A stretch of 64,000 bases of DNA from an uncultured Bacteroidota bacterium (GTDB lineage: Bacteria > Bacteroidota > Bacteroidia > 2-12-FULL-35-15): NCBI GenBank assembly GCA_903847205.1, contig CAINDA010000064.1:124001-188000 (forward strand). The letters run 5' to 3'. The notes below the pieces were generated by a model. That model worked only from the letters and a program-made list of their open reading frames with translations, ran no database searches and was not told where the DNA came from. The position numbers and the translations under genes are program-made. Positions 26,168-60,365 of the stretch are shown piece by piece (within the stretch, counting starts at the first letter, position 1; each line of letters starts with the position of its first letter).

Positions 26168-26475
26168 CTATACTACCGATGAGTTACCGAAATCAGAATA
26201 GGGTCCCTACTGTAGTACCGATACGTTCCCGAAATGGGAATAAGCTCGGTAAGGTTTTACGACAGCAATACCTAATCGTGTAACGAGCCAATAAGATATT
26301 ACAGAAGCAATACCCAATCGTGTAATGAGTCCGTAAGGAATTACGGAAGCAATACCTAATCGTGTAATGCATCCCTAATGTATTACAGAAGCAATACCTA
26401 ACAGTGTAATGGTCCCGTAAGGTATTACGGAAGCATTACCTGATCGTGTAATGGCTTCATAAGGTTTTACAGGCT
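26168..26475. repeat. 42-bp tandem repeat array
   Basis: Seven consecutive units of exactly 42 bp begin at 26168, 26210, 26251/2, 26293, 26335, 26377 and 26419, with a partial eighth from 26461. Units 3-7 share a consensus close to AAGGTATTACGGAAGCAATACC then TAATCGTGTAATGNNTCC; the first two are a diverged subtype with TACCGATGAGTTACCGAAAT-like sequence. Each core unit contains inverted ATTAC/GTAAT half-sites. There are no unique spacers, so it is not CRISPR. It ends about 200 bp before the orphan gene at 26669. Confidence 0.85.
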
Positions 26476-26668
26476 TCTGTTCAGTAAAAGTGTCAGGGTA
26501 AAAAAGTTTTTGTATTTCCAAAACATGCAGCGCAGCAGTTTTTAAATTGAAATGTTAAAAAATGTAAAATCGGAAAGCACTGCACAATATCCTTTATTTC
26601 ATGGAGTTTTAAATACAGTTAACATTTTATTCATAAACCTAATCTTTAGAAATCATGAAAACAGTAAC

Positions 26669-27631
26669 ATGGAGTATTGCCCACATCTTTTTTTAACTGC
26701 CATCAGAGGAAGCTACGTTAATGCAAAAAAAATGAGTAATTTTTATTTTACCCAGCTGAATAATAACAGTGCCGACCCCGACATTGCATTATTGAAAACC
26801 AACTTTCAGCCTTTCAATACAACTATGAACAGCACTTATACTGCTTTTATAGCTCAGGGAGGAAATCAGAACGGTGCCAGCAAAACTTTTTCTCAGCGCT
26901 TAGCGGATATGACTCCCAATGTAAACTTCTGGGATTCTTCTGTCCAGTTGATTTACCCTAAAGGCTCCGGACCCTATGCAGCTTTATTTCCCAACGGTCA
27001 TACCGGATTTTTGCAGGGTACACAAATAGATAGAATTACGGCTGTTGAGGCCCTCAGCCTGAAGCTGGGCGCCGATGCAGCTGCTGATACCGCAAATGCC
27101 CCGGCTTTAACCCTTTTAAAGGGTAAGGTTGATCTTTATTATACCGATTTAGAAAAAGCGTACAATGATAAAAATGACGGTAAAAGTATCAGCGGCATAC
27201 AAAGCGATGCCTGTTTCGATGCCTCCATTGCAGTGTGCGAACAAATGTTAATCGGTTTAGGTACTCTTACAATAAAATTTTACAAAACCCCTGGTGTTAT
27301 CGCGGGTTACTTTGATGAAGCTACTATCAGGAGTTCTCAGCAGACCGATTTTTCACATTTGGTAAAATTGCTTACTGCATTTACTATTGCTAAACGCACG
27401 CTGGCTCCAACTGATCAGATAAGAATAAATAATACAGGCCCCGTGCTGCTTCGTTTTTATGCCGGCAATATTAAAGATGCTGCTATCGGTACAGTATTCA
27501 TAGAAGTTGCACCCGGAGCTAATCAAACTTACTCTGCTTCAGCTTTAGGCGATGTAACCAACAATCATTTTATTATGGTTTACAACCCGGATGTACTGCA
27601 GCCAGGTTCGTTTGTTTTGAATCTGCTATAG
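26669..27631 (+). CDS. Orphan hypothetical protein
   Basis: 320 residues from the ATG at 26669; an in-frame ATG at 26552 would add 39 residues of AT-rich, non-conserved-looking sequence. No signal peptide. The protein is mixed helix with FYFTQLNNNSADPDIALLKT, a region of alternating Ala and Asp (KLGADAAADTANAPALTLLK), helical segments, and a beta-rich C-terminal domain beginning TDQIRINNTGPVLLRFYAG. I do not recognise a family. It stands alone between the 42-bp array and a convergent operon. Its last codons and terminator are duplicated at 31774-31911. Confidence 0.7.
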   Translation: MEYCPHLFLTAIRGSYVNAKKMSNFYFTQLNNNSADPDIALLKTNFQPFNTTMNSTYTAFIAQGGNQNGASKTFSQRLADMTPNVNFWDSSVQLIYPKGSGPYAALFPNGHTGFLQGTQIDRITAVEALSLKLGADAAADTANAPALTLLKGKVDLYYTDLEKAYNDKNDGKSISGIQSDACFDASIAVCEQMLIGLGTLTIKFYKTPGVIAGYFDEATIRSSQQTDFSHLVKLLTAFTIAKRTLAPTDQIRINNTGPVLLRFYAGNIKDAAIGTVFIEVAPGANQTYSASALGDVTNNHFIMVYNPDVLQPGSFVLNLL

Positions 27632-27642
27632 ATAAAAAAATT

Positions 27643-28368
27643 TTAAAGTTTTGTTTGGTTGAAGGTTGGTGGTTTGTTTGAGTGAAAAGTCCCGTTTGGT
27701 TGCGGGACTTTTCTATTTATTTTTTTTTTACCGTTCGCATATTCTTTTTCAGACCGGCCGATTTTATTGACTTTATAAAGCTGGGTGCATATATAAATTA
27801 TTACGCCCCATACTGAAATGAGTAAGATATTGACTATGATAATTAATAAAACTGGAGCATTCGATCTGCCGGCCCACAATGCTCTTTGCTGGCTGGCGCG
27901 ATTAATCACAACAGGAATTCCCCAATGCATAATTTTATGGGCTTCTGCATTTTCATATTGTTCACTGTCTTCAATTTTTGCAATTATAAAAACATTTCCT
28001 AAAGAATCTCCCGGCAGATCAGCCGGGAAATCGACCATAATGCTCCCTGTTTCATCTGTTGTGCTCACGGAGGCTTCTATCGGCAGCAAACCGAAATTTC
28101 TTTTTACATAAAAATGCAGTTCTACTGCCGCAACGGGTTTGCCATCCTCGTTTGTTACTATGGCTTTTAATTTTTTACCAGATGCAATTTCTATAGCTTC
28201 TAATTTGATGTTTGCTTTTTTTAATTCACTGCCCGATTTAACATCAGATTTGTTTTCAGCAGAGGCATAAAGATTATTTACACTTCCCCAAAAAAACAGA
28301 GCAGAAATAATTCCTGCAAATAATTTTATACTCCTGCGCCTGCTGTATTTCAAAAAATAAATTTTCAT
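27643..28368 (-). CDS. Periplasmic-domain membrane protein of the NrfD operon
   Basis: 241 residues. An N-terminal hydrophobic segment (SIKLFAGIISALFFWGSVNN) is followed by a beta-rich domain (residues about 50-140, with LKAIVTNEDGKPVAAVELHF, like a carboxypeptidase-regulatory or Ig fold). A second membrane span (VLLIIIVNILLISVWGVIIYI) comes near residue 175, then a basic tail. The last 20-25 residues (from RKVPQPNGTFHS) are encoded by the transcription terminator of the convergent gene, so the natural end may once have been earlier. It starts 5 bp after the NrfD gene and so probably belongs to that complex. No family recognised. Confidence 0.72.
   Translation of the reverse strand: MKIYFLKYSRRRSIKLFAGIISALFFWGSVNNLYASAENKSDVKSGSELKKANIKLEAIEIASGKKLKAIVTNEDGKPVAAVELHFYVKRNFGLLPIEASVSTTDETGSIMVDFPADLPGDSLGNVFIIAKIEDSEQYENAEAHKIMHWGIPVVINRASQQRALWAGRSNAPVLLIIIVNILLISVWGVIIYICTQLYKVNKIGRSEKEYANGKKKINRKVPQPNGTFHSNKPPTFNQTKL
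27685..27712 (+). terminator. Terminator of the orphan gene
   Basis: AAAAGTCCCG and CGGGACTTTT form a perfect 10-bp stem around TTTGGTTG. It lies inside the coding end of the minus-strand gene. A near-identical copy is at 31884-31911 and a decayed one at 43241. Confidence 0.85.
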
Positions 28369-28373
28369 AGATT

Positions 28374-29774
28374 TTACTCCTTCATAGATTTTATATTCTT
28401 AAGCAATCCTTTTTCCTCGGCAATTTCCCAGATAGGAATAATGGGAAACAGCCGTATCAATAATGTCATTAGCAGCAACGCTCCAGCAAGTGAACCGGCA
28501 GTAACAGCCCATTCTTCCCACGATGGAATATAATGAGTCCATGAAACCGGAATGTTCTGCATTGGTATAAAAGGATGCATCAGCGTGGGGGTAACAATCA
28601 AAAATCGTTTGAACCATGCGCCTACGACAACCAATACAGAAATAACAAAAATTGGAATCGGCTTTCTGCCTTTTCTGAAAAGCAAAACCAATATTGGTAT
28701 CATCATTCCGAATATCTGAACCATCCAGAACATTGGGGCAAAGCGTCCTGAAAATAAAGACTGCAGGTGTTCACCTTCCACATTTTTCATTTTGTATCCT
28801 GTTATTAAATATTCATTTATATTAAAATAAAAATAGACGAGTGAGAGCAGCACCAGCAGTTTGCCCATGTGGTCGAAATGTTTGTGTGTAATATATTTTT
28901 CTAGATTGTAGTGATTTCTCAATATATACATGCCCGCTATTACGGCAGCCGCGCCAACCATAAACGCCCCGGAAACAAAGTAGGGTCCAAAATTAGTGCT
29001 GTCCCATCCAACACGAAACGTAGTAGCAAATAGCCATGAAGTAACAGTATGTATGGCTAATGCAAGCGGGATAATTAATATTGCAAGAACTCTTATTGAT
29101 TTGTTGATTATTTGATATTGTTTTTTTGTTCCTTTCCAGTTGAGTGATAAAATTCCGTAAAGTTTCCGCTGCCATTTTGGAATATTAACCATTTCATTTT
29201 TGCAGAGTGCAAGATCGGGCAGCAAGGGAAGATAGAGCAGCAACAGGCTGACCGTAAGGTATGTACTAATAACAATTACGTCCCAGATAATCGGTGATTG
29301 AATTCTCCCATAAACAAAAAGATGCCAGAAACGCTCAGGCCTTCCCATATCAACAATGATAATAATACCAGCAAAAACAATTGCGGCTACTGCAATTACT
29401 TCTGCTATTCTGGTGAGCGGCGTTCTCCATTTTACATTGGCAAGTTTTAAAATAGCGCTTACCAAGGAGCCTACTAAACTGATTGCAACAAAGAAAACAA
29501 AATTGGAAATATAAATTCCCCAGGAGGAAAAGTCCCGCATATCGGTTACAATCAGCCCGTATCTCAATTGTTTGATGTATGCAAAAAGTCCGAGGAGGCA
29601 AATAGAGAACAGCACTCCGATCCATATTTTTCCTGATCTCCCAAATTTTTTTGGCAGCAGATCAGTAATGAGTTCATGAGTTTCTTTGCTGAACTTTTGT
29701 TCTTCCTTTTTGGGAATTGTTTTAGCGCGGCGTTTTACTTCTTCTGCATATTGAACTGTATCAGTATATATCAT
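28374..29774 (-). CDS. NrfD/PsrC-family quinone-interacting membrane subunit
   Basis: 466 residues with about ten membrane segments after a 50-residue cytoplasmic N-terminus. WGIYISNFVFFVAISLVGSL, IVDMGRPERFWHLFVYGRIQ and the later VGWDSTNFGPYFVSGAFMVG are typical of NrfD/PsrC proteins, which exchange electrons between menaquinone and an iron-sulfur partner. Its start codon overlaps the stop of the 4Fe-4S gene by 1 bp. No molybdopterin, cytochrome c or hydrogenase catalytic gene is nearby. Family secure, electron acceptor unknown. Confidence 0.9.
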   Translation of the reverse strand: MIYTDTVQYAEEVKRRAKTIPKKEEQKFSKETHELITDLLPKKFGRSGKIWIGVLFSICLLGLFAYIKQLRYGLIVTDMRDFSSWGIYISNFVFFVAISLVGSLVSAILKLANVKWRTPLTRIAEVIAVAAIVFAGIIIIVDMGRPERFWHLFVYGRIQSPIIWDVIVISTYLTVSLLLLYLPLLPDLALCKNEMVNIPKWQRKLYGILSLNWKGTKKQYQIINKSIRVLAILIIPLALAIHTVTSWLFATTFRVGWDSTNFGPYFVSGAFMVGAAAVIAGMYILRNHYNLEKYITHKHFDHMGKLLVLLSLVYFYFNINEYLITGYKMKNVEGEHLQSLFSGRFAPMFWMVQIFGMMIPILVLLFRKGRKPIPIFVISVLVVVGAWFKRFLIVTPTLMHPFIPMQNIPVSWTHYIPSWEEWAVTAGSLAGALLLMTLLIRLFPIIPIWEIAEEKGLLKNIKSMKE

Positions 29775-30706
29775 CAGCCTTGTATTTTAGTATCATTTGA
29801 CTCTTCAAATGGAAATCTTCTTTTAACCGGCGGTAAATAATATACACGCGGCTTGGTTCCCAATTCTTCAAGGTAGCGGTAACCTGATTTTTCTTTCAGC
29901 AATTCGCTTAAACGTACTGTTTCATCCCCATTGCTCACAGTATCATCCTGCTCATCGCCAAAATAAAAAACGCCGTTAGGGCAGGCTGTTACACAGTCGG
30001 GCAGTGTTCCTTTTTGTGCATGGGAAGGACAGAAGTCGCATTTTTCAACTGTACCTTTAATGTGCGAACTGCATTGATGATGAGGTTTTATATCTTTCTT
30101 CTCCGGTTCTGTCAGCTTAAATTCGTCTTCGCCCCAATTAAAAATTCGGGCAGAATAAGGGCAGGCAACCATGCAGAATCTGCATCCAATGCAGCGGTTA
30201 TTGTCTATGGACACTGTTCCGTCAGTAAGTTTGAATGTGGCATCTACAGGGCAGACTTTTACGCATGGCGGATCGTCGCAATGAAAGCAGGGAGTCGGCA
30301 TCCAATAAGGCGCTGTTTTTTCAGCCTCCTGCATTTTTTCAATCTTAATATAACTTCTTTCGGGAGGAAGATAATGCATCTTCGAACAGGCTTTTTTACA
30401 CTTGCCTGCATGTGCGCACTTTGCTAGATCAATCACCATAACAAACTTTTTGTCCGGTGCACCCTGCCGTATATTTAGCGGGATATCAGGTATCTCAGGG
30501 TTTATCAGGGAACTGTCAACCTCAATAATTCTGCCGTCCGGAGAAAGCAGTTTTATTTTTTTTCCGGATGCGGATTTTTCTTTGGCTGCAAAAACTTCAA
30601 ATATTCCCAGACTTCCAGCAGCAGCTGCAACTACTCCTGCTATAGCACCAAGTTTTAAAAACTTTTTTCTGGAATTGCTGTTTTCCTCATTTTTTGTTTC
30701 AGTCAT
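29774..30706 (-). CDS. 4Fe-4S ferredoxin-type electron transfer subunit (NrfC/DmsB-like)
   Basis: 310 residues. The N-terminus SRKKFLKLGAIAGVVAAAAG resembles a Tat signal but with RK in place of RR. Residues 40-60 carry KIKLLSPDGRIIEVD, a motif shared with the next gene. Four cysteine clusters follow: CAHAGKCKKAC, CFHCDDPPCVKVCP, CIGCRFCMVACP, and CDFCPSHAQ with CVTACP, giving capacity for four 4Fe-4S centres. It is the usual partner of NrfD. Gaps: 4 bp upstream, 1-bp overlap downstream. Confidence 0.92.
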   Translation of the reverse strand: MTETKNEENSNSRKKFLKLGAIAGVVAAAAGSLGIFEVFAAKEKSASGKKIKLLSPDGRIIEVDSSLINPEIPDIPLNIRQGAPDKKFVMVIDLAKCAHAGKCKKACSKMHYLPPERSYIKIEKMQEAEKTAPYWMPTPCFHCDDPPCVKVCPVDATFKLTDGTVSIDNNRCIGCRFCMVACPYSARIFNWGEDEFKLTEPEKKDIKPHHQCSSHIKGTVEKCDFCPSHAQKGTLPDCVTACPNGVFYFGDEQDDTVSNGDETVRLSELLKEKSGYRYLEELGTKPRVYYLPPVKRRFPFEESNDTKIQG

Positions 30707-30710
30707 ACTA

Positions 30711-30962
30711 TTAAGTTTTAGAGGTTTTCATCCATTCCTGCACTTCATTGTTTGTGGCCCTTTGCTGGGTGGCTGCAATCTGTGTATAAACAGATTCATC
30801 AATTTCTACCAGCTTACCTTCTGGTGTAAGCATTTTTATTTTTTTACTTTCTTTAGGTTGAGAAGTTTTGTACTCAAATTTTGCTATGCCCGCTCCTATA
30901 ATAACTGCGGAGATCAATTTTAAAAAACTCCGGCGTTGTTTTTTAGCATTTTCTTTTTCCAT
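30711..30962 (-). CDS. Mini-protein with Tat signal, first gene of the NrfD operon
   Basis: 83 residues. KQRRSFLKLISAVIIGAGIA is a proper twin-arginine signal, better than that of the iron-sulfur protein next to it. The mature part has KKIKMLTPEGKLVEIDES, aligned with KKIKLLSPDGRIIEVDSS of the neighbour, and then stops without any cysteine. It looks like the N-terminal module of the iron-sulfur protein made as a separate subunit. It could supply Tat targeting for the complex, or be a decayed duplicate. No family known to me. Confidence 0.72.
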   Translation of the reverse strand: MEKENAKKQRRSFLKLISAVIIGAGIAKFEYKTSQPKESKKIKMLTPEGKLVEIDESVYTQIAATQQRATNNEVQEWMKTSKT

Positions 30963-31773: not shown

Positions 31774-31829
31774 TTATTTTCTTACCCGATTTTGTGCAGA
31801 CAGGTTCGTTTGTATTGAATCTGCAATAG
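31774..31829 (+). pseudogene. Copied 3' end of the orphan gene
   Basis: The sequence before the TAG at 31827-31829 encodes QTGSFVLNLQ, matching QPGSFVLNLL at the end of the gene at 26669-27631. Similarity continues through about 80 bp of 3' DNA and the terminator. Nothing upstream of about 31770 aligns. Confidence 0.75.
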
Positions 31830-31883
31830 ATAAAAAATTTTTAAAGTTTTATTTGGTTGATGGTTGATTAGTTTGCTTGAGTG

Positions 31884-31911
31884 AAAAGTCCCGTTTGGTT
31901 GCGGGACTTTT
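31884..31911 (+). terminator. Duplicated terminator hairpin
   Basis: AAAAGTCCCG/CGGGACTTTT, same as at 27685-27712, now without an intact gene before it. Confidence 0.75.
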
Positions 31912-31940
31912 CTATTTGTAACAGTTCGTTTTTTTATTTC

Positions 31941-59228: not shown

Positions 59229-59288
59229 AATACCTCCTTAACTAAACGACATTGATTTACAAATTCACAAATTATCATATTAATAAAT

Positions 59289-59296
59289 TACCTTTG
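59289..59296 (+). promoter_or_regulatory. -7 promoter element of trhO
   Basis: TACCTTTG, 25 nt before the ATG. Confidence 0.5.
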
Positions 59297-59321
59297 TGCG
59301 TATTTTAACCCCTCAGATACT

Positions 59322-60365
59322 ATGTTATTGCAAAACAGAGTTAACAAAAAGGAGCTGAAAAAACTGATTCAGGAAGAAAACACAAAACGCATTACTGTTT
59401 CGTTTTACCGCTACGTAATTATTGATAATCCTCAAGAACTTCGCGACAATTTATTTGTGCAGTGGAACAGCCTTAATATTTTAGGCCGTATTTACATTGC
59501 CAGTGAAGGAATTAATGCTCAGATGTGCGTTCCGGAAGACAATTGGGATGCTTTCAAAAAAAAACTGTCGGCCGATTCACGTTTTTCGGATATGCCGTTT
59601 AAAATTGCTGTCGAAGACAATAGCAAATCATTTTATAAACTTACAATTAAAGTCCGTCCTAAAATTGTTGCCGACGGATTAGAAGACTCTAGTTTTGATG
59701 TAACCAATGTGGGTAATCATTTAACGGCAAGGGAATTTAATGATGCAATGGAAAATCCCGATACCATTGTTGTAGATATGCGCAATCATTACGAAAGCGA
59801 AGTAGGGCGTTTTACCGGCGCGCTTTGTCCTGATGCCGATACCTTCCGGGAGGAACTCCCTATTGTTCTTGAAGAATTGAAGGATAAAAAAAATCAGAAA
59901 ATAATTATGTACTGCACCGGCGGTGTTCGCTGCGAAAAAGCCAGTTCGTATTTAAAACATCATGGATTTAAAGATGTTAACCAGCTGCACGGAGGAATTA
60001 TTGATTATGTGAGGCAGATAAAAGCAGAAAGCCTGCCCTCGAAATTTATTGGTAAAAACTTTGTTTTTGATGAGCGTGTAGGCGAACGCATTACCGATGA
60101 TGTAATTGCTCAATGCCACCAATGCGGGGCCTCCTGTGATACACATGTAAATTGTGCAAATGATGACTGCCACCTTTTGTTTATTCAATGCGAAAAATGC
60201 ACAGAAAAAATGAAAGGCTGCTGTACCCCCGAATGTGTGCACATTGCCTCACTGCCGGATGATGAGCAGAGAAAACTCAGAAAAGGAAGAAAAAAGGAAG
60301 ACTGCCTCTCGGTTTACAAAAGCAGGCTGCGTCCTAATTTAAAGGATATTTTGGCAAAAGGATGA
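59322..60365 (+). CDS. trhO: tRNA uridine(34) hydroxylase, rhodanese-related
   Basis: 347 residues. The N-terminal acylphosphatase-like domain has FVQWNSLNILGRIYIASEGI and the rhodanese domain has VDMRNHYESEVGRF and MYCTGGVRCEKASSYLK with catalytic Cys 198. A cysteine-rich C-terminal region (CHQCGASCD, CEKCTEKMKGCC) probably binds zinc. It makes 5-hydroxyuridine at tRNA position 34. Single gene with its own promoter. Confidence 0.92.
   Translation: MLLQNRVNKKELKKLIQEENTKRITVSFYRYVIIDNPQELRDNLFVQWNSLNILGRIYIASEGINAQMCVPEDNWDAFKKKLSADSRFSDMPFKIAVEDNSKSFYKLTIKVRPKIVADGLEDSSFDVTNVGNHLTAREFNDAMENPDTIVVDMRNHYESEVGRFTGALCPDADTFREELPIVLEELKDKKNQKIIMYCTGGVRCEKASSYLKHHGFKDVNQLHGGIIDYVRQIKAESLPSKFIGKNFVFDERVGERITDDVIAQCHQCGASCDTHVNCANDDCHLLFIQCEKCTEKMKGCCTPECVHIASLPDDEQRKLRKGRKKEDCLSVYKSRLRPNLKDILAKG

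Follow-up and report, generated by a model that had tools for sequence, protein, structure and literature searches.

What does a membrane-bound NrfD/iron-sulfur module do when no catalytic subunit is encoded beside it, and why should it be led by a very small protein carrying a twin-arginine translocation (Tat) motif? These questions are raised by a four-gene operon in a 64,000-nucleotide stretch of DNA from an uncultured Bacteroidota bacterium (GenBank assembly GCA_903847205.1, contig CAINDA010000064.1, positions 124,001 to 188,000; hereafter the window). The operon encodes the small protein (the mini-protein), a ferredoxin-type iron-sulfur protein (FeS), an NrfD-like membrane protein and a membrane protein with an immunoglobulin (Ig)-like domain. 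On our best reading of the comparative analysis, these genes would specify a stripped-down menaquinol:cytochrome c oxidoreductase resembling alternative complex III (ACIII), with the mini-protein as a dedicated accessory subunit.

Gene content and kinship with alternative complex III

All four open reading frames (ORFs) of the operon proposed by the initial annotation were found:

30711-30962, minus strand: mini-Tat gene, ORF of 83 amino acids (aa)
29774-30706, minus strand: FeS gene, 310 aa; Tat-type ferredoxin iron-sulfur subunit with four cluster sites
28374-29774, minus strand: NrfD-like gene, 466 aa; membrane subunit
27643-28368, minus strand: Ig-like/transmembrane gene, 241 aa; signal peptide, Ig-like (Big_1-like) domain and one C-terminal transmembrane helix

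The NrfD gene shares one base with the FeS gene and the remaining intergenic gaps are 4-5 bp. The Big_1 match of the Ig-like protein (E 0.0013) lies under the Pfam cut-off, and homologs of this protein occur in relatives.

The NrfD protein belongs to the PF03916 superfamily (E 1.6e-34; 120.4 bits against a gathering threshold of 25.8). Its closest solved relatives are the ActC subunits of ACIII (6lod_C, 6btm_C and 6f0k_C; E 3e-54 or better), to which it aligns over nearly its full length. By alignment position to 6f0k_C, Ser160 and Arg390 correspond to ActC Ser164 and Arg395, residues tied to quinone binding and ion gating (PMC8076601, in part, whose numbering is used here). The Ser160 equivalent was present in 106/106 NrfD sequences and the Arg390 equivalent in 102/106. 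The FeS protein matches Fer4_11 (E 7.7e-18), and residues 82-299 of its AlphaFold2 (AF2) model match the folds of ArrB, PsrB and ActB. Fifteen of its cluster cysteines are conserved; the first motif lacks its second ligand, leaving three Cys only (C97, C103 and C107) with Ala at the second position, which suggests a three-ligand cluster at this site. A Cys at that position was found in 6/113 FeS genes (a count that includes the duplicate loci L090 and L103), all of them from operons without a mini-protein gene (mini-less).

We compared the operon with three known systems. Like ACIII, it has an ActC-type NrfD with the quinone-site Ser and the gate Arg, a ferredoxin with one three-Cys site, no molybdenum (Mo) chemistry and, as described below, a cytochrome c as partner; as we read the sequences, the three-Cys site is the first motif in the window FeS and the third in the ActB of the same genome. 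Unlike ACIII, the window cluster has no multiheme ActA (there is no CXXCH frame), the 310-aa FeS is ferredoxin only, with no fused Mo-enzyme-like ActB1 domain, and there is no second NrfD (ActF), one of four PF03916 matches in the genome lying in the window and no ActF-specific model having been searched. The Ig-like protein and the mini-protein are additional to the ACIII set. In NCBIfam, FeS and NrfD matched DsrO and DsrP of DsrMKJOP best, but both stayed below cut-off (168.2 bits against 200 and 131.7 against 350), and the window, having no CXXCH frame, has no counterpart of the triheme DsrJ. QrcABCD also contains an FeS and NrfD pair, but its other subunits include a multiheme cytochrome and one resembling the Mo family, and the scores were far below cut-off (QrcC, 125.3 of 400 bits; QrcD, 76.7 of 570). 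The counterpart pair, QrcCD, is described as a redox dimer with menaquinone (PMC13059093, in part).

The genome to which the window belongs (G000; 5.49 Mb, 72 contigs, completeness 100) contains four PF03916 genes: that of the window, the ActC of its own act operon, which lies on contig C25 with a 6-heme ActA-like protein, and two in FeS-NrfD-Ig-cytochrome c modules on C25 and C26. A further FeS gene of the family (L067 7968-8960, on C45) has no NrfD gene alongside.

To place the operon among its relatives, we took the best 80 of 545 confirmed FeS relatives from named genomes, chosen by similarity to the window's FeS, together with 21 loci from the organism's own group. Of these 101 loci 99 are distinct, L090 and L103 being left out of locus counts (their contigs are those of L056 and L060), and the fractions given here hold for this sample. 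A monoheme cytochrome c gene lies near the FeS gene in 81/99 distinct loci (46/52 mini-bearing, 35/47 mini-less). An ActC-like NrfD with its key residues, an FeS with a probable three-ligand cluster and this recurring cytochrome c together point to quinol:cytochrome c oxidoreduction without a Mo subunit. The window operon has no cytochrome c, DUF5777 barrel or CX4CH cytochrome alongside, and the sole bare CX4CH match of the window (59256-60362) is far from it. Close relatives of the monoheme cytochrome occur in the same genome, inside the modules on C25 and C26.

The initial annotation had noted that no molybdopterin, hydrogenase or multiheme cytochrome gene lies nearby, and this description holds: no CXXCH frame was found in the whole 64-kb window, no PF00384 molybdoenzyme was found in the whole genome by a search that was positive in 11/14 control genomes, and neither a hydrogenase nor a Mo enzyme appeared among the 15 window proteins run against Pfam, the only check made for hydrogenases. 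It had also named, as a finding that would count against it, a catalytic subunit regular in relatives and lost here. This came true only in a modified way: what the relatives regularly carry, and the window lacks, is the monoheme cytochrome c; no such pattern was seen for a Mo or nickel (Ni) enzyme. When 54 of 123 unassigned operon ORFs, all from mini-bearing loci, were scanned as neighbours, no Mo-enzyme family was among the 25 Pfam matches listed of 51. A catalytic gene adjacent to the module was seen at a single locus (L072 1-9948, contig C411 of G021), where a divergent FeS-NrfD-Ig module lies with a NarG-type PF00384 protein (E 1.8e-40), a diheme cytochrome and a major facilitator superfamily transporter; this module is mini-less and forms the longest branch of the FeS tree. 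In addition, two modules of G024 precede genes that we take, from their sequences, to be moaA- and moeA-like. These two genomes could speak for a catalytic Mo subunit proper to the module, whose gene lies elsewhere or has been lost; given that PF00384 is missing from the genome and from the listed neighbour matches, we regard this as highly improbable for the window, and as a general case a lost Mo enzyme is ruled out, with L072 as the sole exception seen.

A conserved relative of the FeS N-terminus

The mini-proteins follow a common pattern: RR or RK comes first, followed by a hydrophobic stretch that varies in length, then K-M-L-T-x-D-G-K-L-V-E-V-D and a C-terminal S/T-N/D-x-E-x-x-x-W. In the AF2 model of the window protein the RR motif stands in front of a helix (residues 10-29), followed by a beta-hairpin (41-45/51-55) and short helices (56-65 and 71-81), the C-terminal ones containing NEVQEWM. 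The mean predicted local distance difference test score (pLDDT) is 70.7; local values rise from 54-58 in the residues before position 41 to 79-89 over residues 41-80. G49 and W77 are invariant across 47 homologs.

The initial annotation had observed that the mini-protein repeats a motif of the FeS subunit. This proved to be true homology, which persists when the Tat region is cut away: the mini-protein matches FeS N-termini of the group with E 1e-7 to 8e-5, and a profile-profile comparison without the Tat region aligned it to the FeS segment before the first cluster with a probability of 97.7% (E 2e-12); the FeS core, used as control, gave 0.2%. Below E 0.1, the mini profile matched no protein in the loci other than FeS, nearly all members of which it matched at the N-terminus. 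The homologous hairpin lies within FeS residues 50-64, and the FeS model places it at 50-54/60-64, outside the 82-299 span of most matched solved structures. Whether or not a mini-protein is present, nearly all FeS proteins retain this segment themselves. The mini-protein would thus resemble an FeS N-terminus without the clusters. It reaches no family cut-off in Pfam or NCBIfam and has no solved-structure relative by sequence. Foldseek with the mini model returned nothing at E <= 0.001, a result of little weight given the small size of the model and the poor prediction of its N-terminus.

A separate mini-protein, detected with a profile built from the minis, was found in 52/99 distinct Bacteroidota loci, five members missed by the initial ORF filter having been added via the profile search. 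Mini-bearing loci carry names of Chitinophagaceae, Sphingobacteriaceae, Cyclobacteriaceae, Saprospiraceae and Flavobacteriaceae. The distance between the mini and FeS genes was -41 to +31 bp in 45/47 measured loci; mini starts were set by our own rule, and a start placed too far upstream may account for small negative values. Nine of 395 genomes sampled throughout the phylum contained a separate mini gene, with an FeS gene adjoining in 9/9, and two more matched the mini profile only within longer proteins. Within the organism's own group of 36 genomes, which an order-level search returned unchanged, a separate mini gene occurs in three (G000, G020 and G001). The mini-protein thus recurs beside NrfC/NrfD-like genes elsewhere, and its absence from related operons, named beforehand as one observation that would overturn the initial proposal, was not what we saw. 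In G001 the mini and FeS genes (locus L057) are kept though no NrfD or Ig gene lies alongside, which ties the mini-protein to FeS rather than to NrfD. Upstream of this pair (L057 11971-18146, contig C60) are two similar tandem pairs, each of a YceI-like lipoprotein and a secreted sorting-domain protein.

The ratio of nonsynonymous to synonymous substitution rates (dN/dS) of the mini gene was 0.12-0.29 in 8/12 pairs, the other pairs having saturated dS; these values indicate purifying selection. The presence of the mini requires 5 changes on an FeS core tree of 111 sequences (4 without the three unknown rows), compared with a mean of 37.2 for shuffled labels, none of 500 shuffles being as low as 5. 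This is a quick tree with SH-aLRT (Shimodaira-Hasegawa-like approximate likelihood ratio test) support only; the ferredoxin L127:14834 was left out, and the tandem second modules L120:9974 and L132:9962 were labelled mini-less. The window FeS falls in a six-member clade with a mini in all six (support 100). Several FeS residues differ between mini-bearing and mini-less operons and may follow the same clades. A recent partial duplication in this species alone is ruled out by the 52/99 loci and by the fit to the FeS tree. We also searched upstream of the mini gene for the promoter pattern that we take to be the Bacteroidota consensus; no match lay there, and overall numbers were at chance level.

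The initial annotation had proposed split targeting, in which the mini-protein, having the better signal, carries FeS through Tat. The underlying contrast was confirmed (RRSFLKL on the mini-protein, RKKFLKL on FeS), RK being a poorer Tat motif than RR. Among 51 mini-FeS pairs (including the window and omitting L098 and L118, whose minis lie inside longer frames), both partners have RR in 38, while a mini-protein with RK, KR or no clear motif accompanies an RR-bearing FeS in 11. Only two pairs, the window and its sister G020, combine RR on the mini-protein with RK on FeS; FeS has RR in the other 49. Mini-less FeS genes bear the same kind of Tat signal. An uncharged stretch of at least 12 residues follows RR in 42/48 distinct minis, but it has 8-9 residues in five and 11 in one; the five are hardly Tat carriers, given so short a stretch, and if anything is carried in these cases it would be the mini-protein by FeS. 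In hydrogenases and formate dehydrogenases, a signal-less partner is known to be exported together with the other subunit (PMC10924467, in part), but in such hitchhiker pairs one partner lacks its own Tat signal and here FeS has a motif in every pair. Split targeting as a general rule is ruled out by these counts, and we consider this reading very unlikely. In L105, L119, L149, L158 and relatives, a lipobox-like Cys comes directly after the Tat region of FeS, which suggests lipid-anchored FeS subunits in one clade.

A different role would be that of a maturation factor, which mimics the FeS N-terminus, occupies the Tat machinery, chaperone or docking site during cluster insertion and then leaves. 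There is a possible precedent in TIGR02811 (formate dehydrogenase region TAT target), a short Tat-type protein whose partner is also an oxidoreductase. Short genes of this Tat-like kind are known beside formate dehydrogenases; the TIGR02811 gene presumably lies close to that of its oxidoreductase, and we take FdhX to be the TIGR02811 protein. The window mini-protein scores 13.3 bits against the TIGR02811 cut-off of 48.45, and 3/47 mini homologs match at E <= 0.1 (best 0.00056). The partner enzyme there is a different one, and homology to the hairpin is not among the features linking the two. The homology of the mini-protein to FeS as far as the first cluster domain would suit such a mimic, as would the five minis that keep RRxF without a long hydrophobic stretch, which a cytoplasmic factor could do. 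FdhX1 has been called a formate-dehydrogenase-specific chaperone (PMC4585668, in part). Conversely, the predicted hairpin and two helices with an invariant C-terminal Trp suggest a specific surface, and most minis have the uncharged stretch that export or anchoring needs. We therefore regard a maturation factor as a possible though somewhat unlikely explanation.

Outer-membrane neighbours and the state of the window copy

Mini-bearing modules tend to lie with genes for outer-membrane components. On contigs of at least 15 kb, a DUF5777 barrel accompanies 29/31 mini-bearing modules compared with 10/23 mini-less modules (Fisher p 1e-4), and a family of ~130-aa lipoprotein cytochromes, mostly with CX4CH, accompanies 29/31 and 11/23, respectively. 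Crp/Fnr neighbours showed the reverse distribution (0/31 compared with 10/23), and EB_dh- or YceI-like lipoproteins are common around mini-bearing modules. The tree offers only 1 to 4 independent pairs for the association between mini-protein and DUF5777 (an analysis that also left out L117:7548 and L093:2552), so the link is at the level of clades and inseparable from descent. In G020 the end of a barrel gene lies directly upstream of the mini gene. The window's own genome has DUF5777 on C25 and C43 only; none of its four NrfD matches is on C43, where the gene preceding the barrel is one that we take to be YceI-like. Small lipoproteins, conserved beside DUF5777 barrels, were seen in 57/101 loci (e.g. 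L005 3172-3564); 45/64 members have a CX4CH heme-like motif, and the family has no strong Pfam match.

The window operon itself is flanked by a direct repeat of roughly 130 bp:

27587-27718, no strand assigned: copy 1; 3' end of gene 26552-27631 with a perfect hairpin terminator
31785-31917, no strand assigned: copy 2; upstream of the operon, a remnant of the same gene end (26552-27631)

The terminator hairpin occurs twice in the genome, only here. This layout has the look of a rearrangement in which the operon was either introduced or truncated, which may explain the missing cytochrome c. Nearby, at 26246-26455, lies an intergenic tandem repeat with a 42-nt unit, seen as four overlapping 84-nt copies in register.

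Such a rearrangement raises the question of whether the window operon is a decaying partial module, its cytochrome c and outer-membrane partners gone and no active complex left. The bare surroundings of the operon, the unique flanking repeat into which the Ig gene runs and the sister species G001, of the same subtype, with no NrfD or Ig gene alongside, would all fit decay. Against it, the four frames are intact, the invariant Cys, Ser and Arg are retained, and dN/dS between the window and G020 is 0.24 for the mini-protein and 0.13 for the FeS N-terminus. We consider decay unlikely.

A proposed quinone-reactive core with an accessory subunit

Taken together, we propose, with about even confidence in the reading as a whole, that the operon specifies the core of a Bacteroidota electron-transfer complex that reacts with quinone and is organised in the manner of the ferredoxin half of ActB with ActC in ACIII, with a cytochrome c as acceptor and the mini-protein as a dedicated accessory subunit. 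NrfD would bind menaquinol on the periplasmic side, the ferredoxin FeS would take the electrons from NrfD and a small cytochrome c would accept them; because electrons would pass along this route, no catalytic Mo or Ni subunit would be expected. A periplasmic scaffold role may fall to the Ig-like subunit with its C-terminal helix. The mini-protein, kin to the FeS N-terminus and composed of a Tat-type signal anchor, the hairpin and short helices without a cluster domain, would most likely sit beside FeS, repeating or capping the site of the FeS hairpin, and help to dock or assemble FeS. The window operon presumably draws on the monoheme cytochromes of the two other modules in the genome.

Several points weigh against this proposal. 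No cytochrome c belongs to the window copy, direct repeats flank it on both sides, and the last ~25 residues of the Ig-like protein fall within repeat copy 1, giving it an altered C-terminus; this copy might be only partly functional. The mini gene lies four genes upstream of FeS in L091 and downstream of it in L142, so adjacency is not strict. The minis of L132, L133, L138, L144 and L151, which keep RRxF with only 8-9 uncharged residues after it, are unsuited to a membrane anchor. Finally, the case is built from sequence comparison and predicted models, from which we infer the formation of a complex, the direction of electron flow (quinol oxidation or reduction), the position and role of the mini-protein and the sharing of cytochrome c.

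The module is of a known kind, an NrfD/FeS pair with an ACIII-like core, in a variant that we did not find described. Neither the module nor the mini-protein was described in the literature searched, in which the term DUF5777 was also absent and which covered few subscription papers. The mini-protein is apparently an unnamed, conserved companion of the FeS/NrfD pair across many Bacteroidota. In the available part of a survey of NrfD proteins (PMC8076601), the Bacteroidetes entries are only ActC/ActF and two NhcC, and the module with its small conserved companion would be a further NrfD type beyond these.

Looking forward, if the proposal is true, it would add a simplified menaquinol:cytochrome c oxidoreductase to a phylum in which little of the anaerobic and microaerobic respiration has been mapped. 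The mini-protein offers a natural experiment on the role of the N-terminal segment of an exported iron-sulfur subunit apart from its clusters. More tentatively, there may be a Bacteroidota-specific route from the trimmed ACIII-like oxidoreductase through the monoheme cytochrome c to outer-membrane lipoprotein hemes (CX4CH, EB_dh- and YceI-type) at the DUF5777 barrel, with the mini-protein as the docking or assembly subunit of this subtype, although we think it rather doubtful that the whole route will hold as drawn. The tie to outer-membrane barrels with heme lipoproteins, at the level of clades only, makes such an outward electron route testable.

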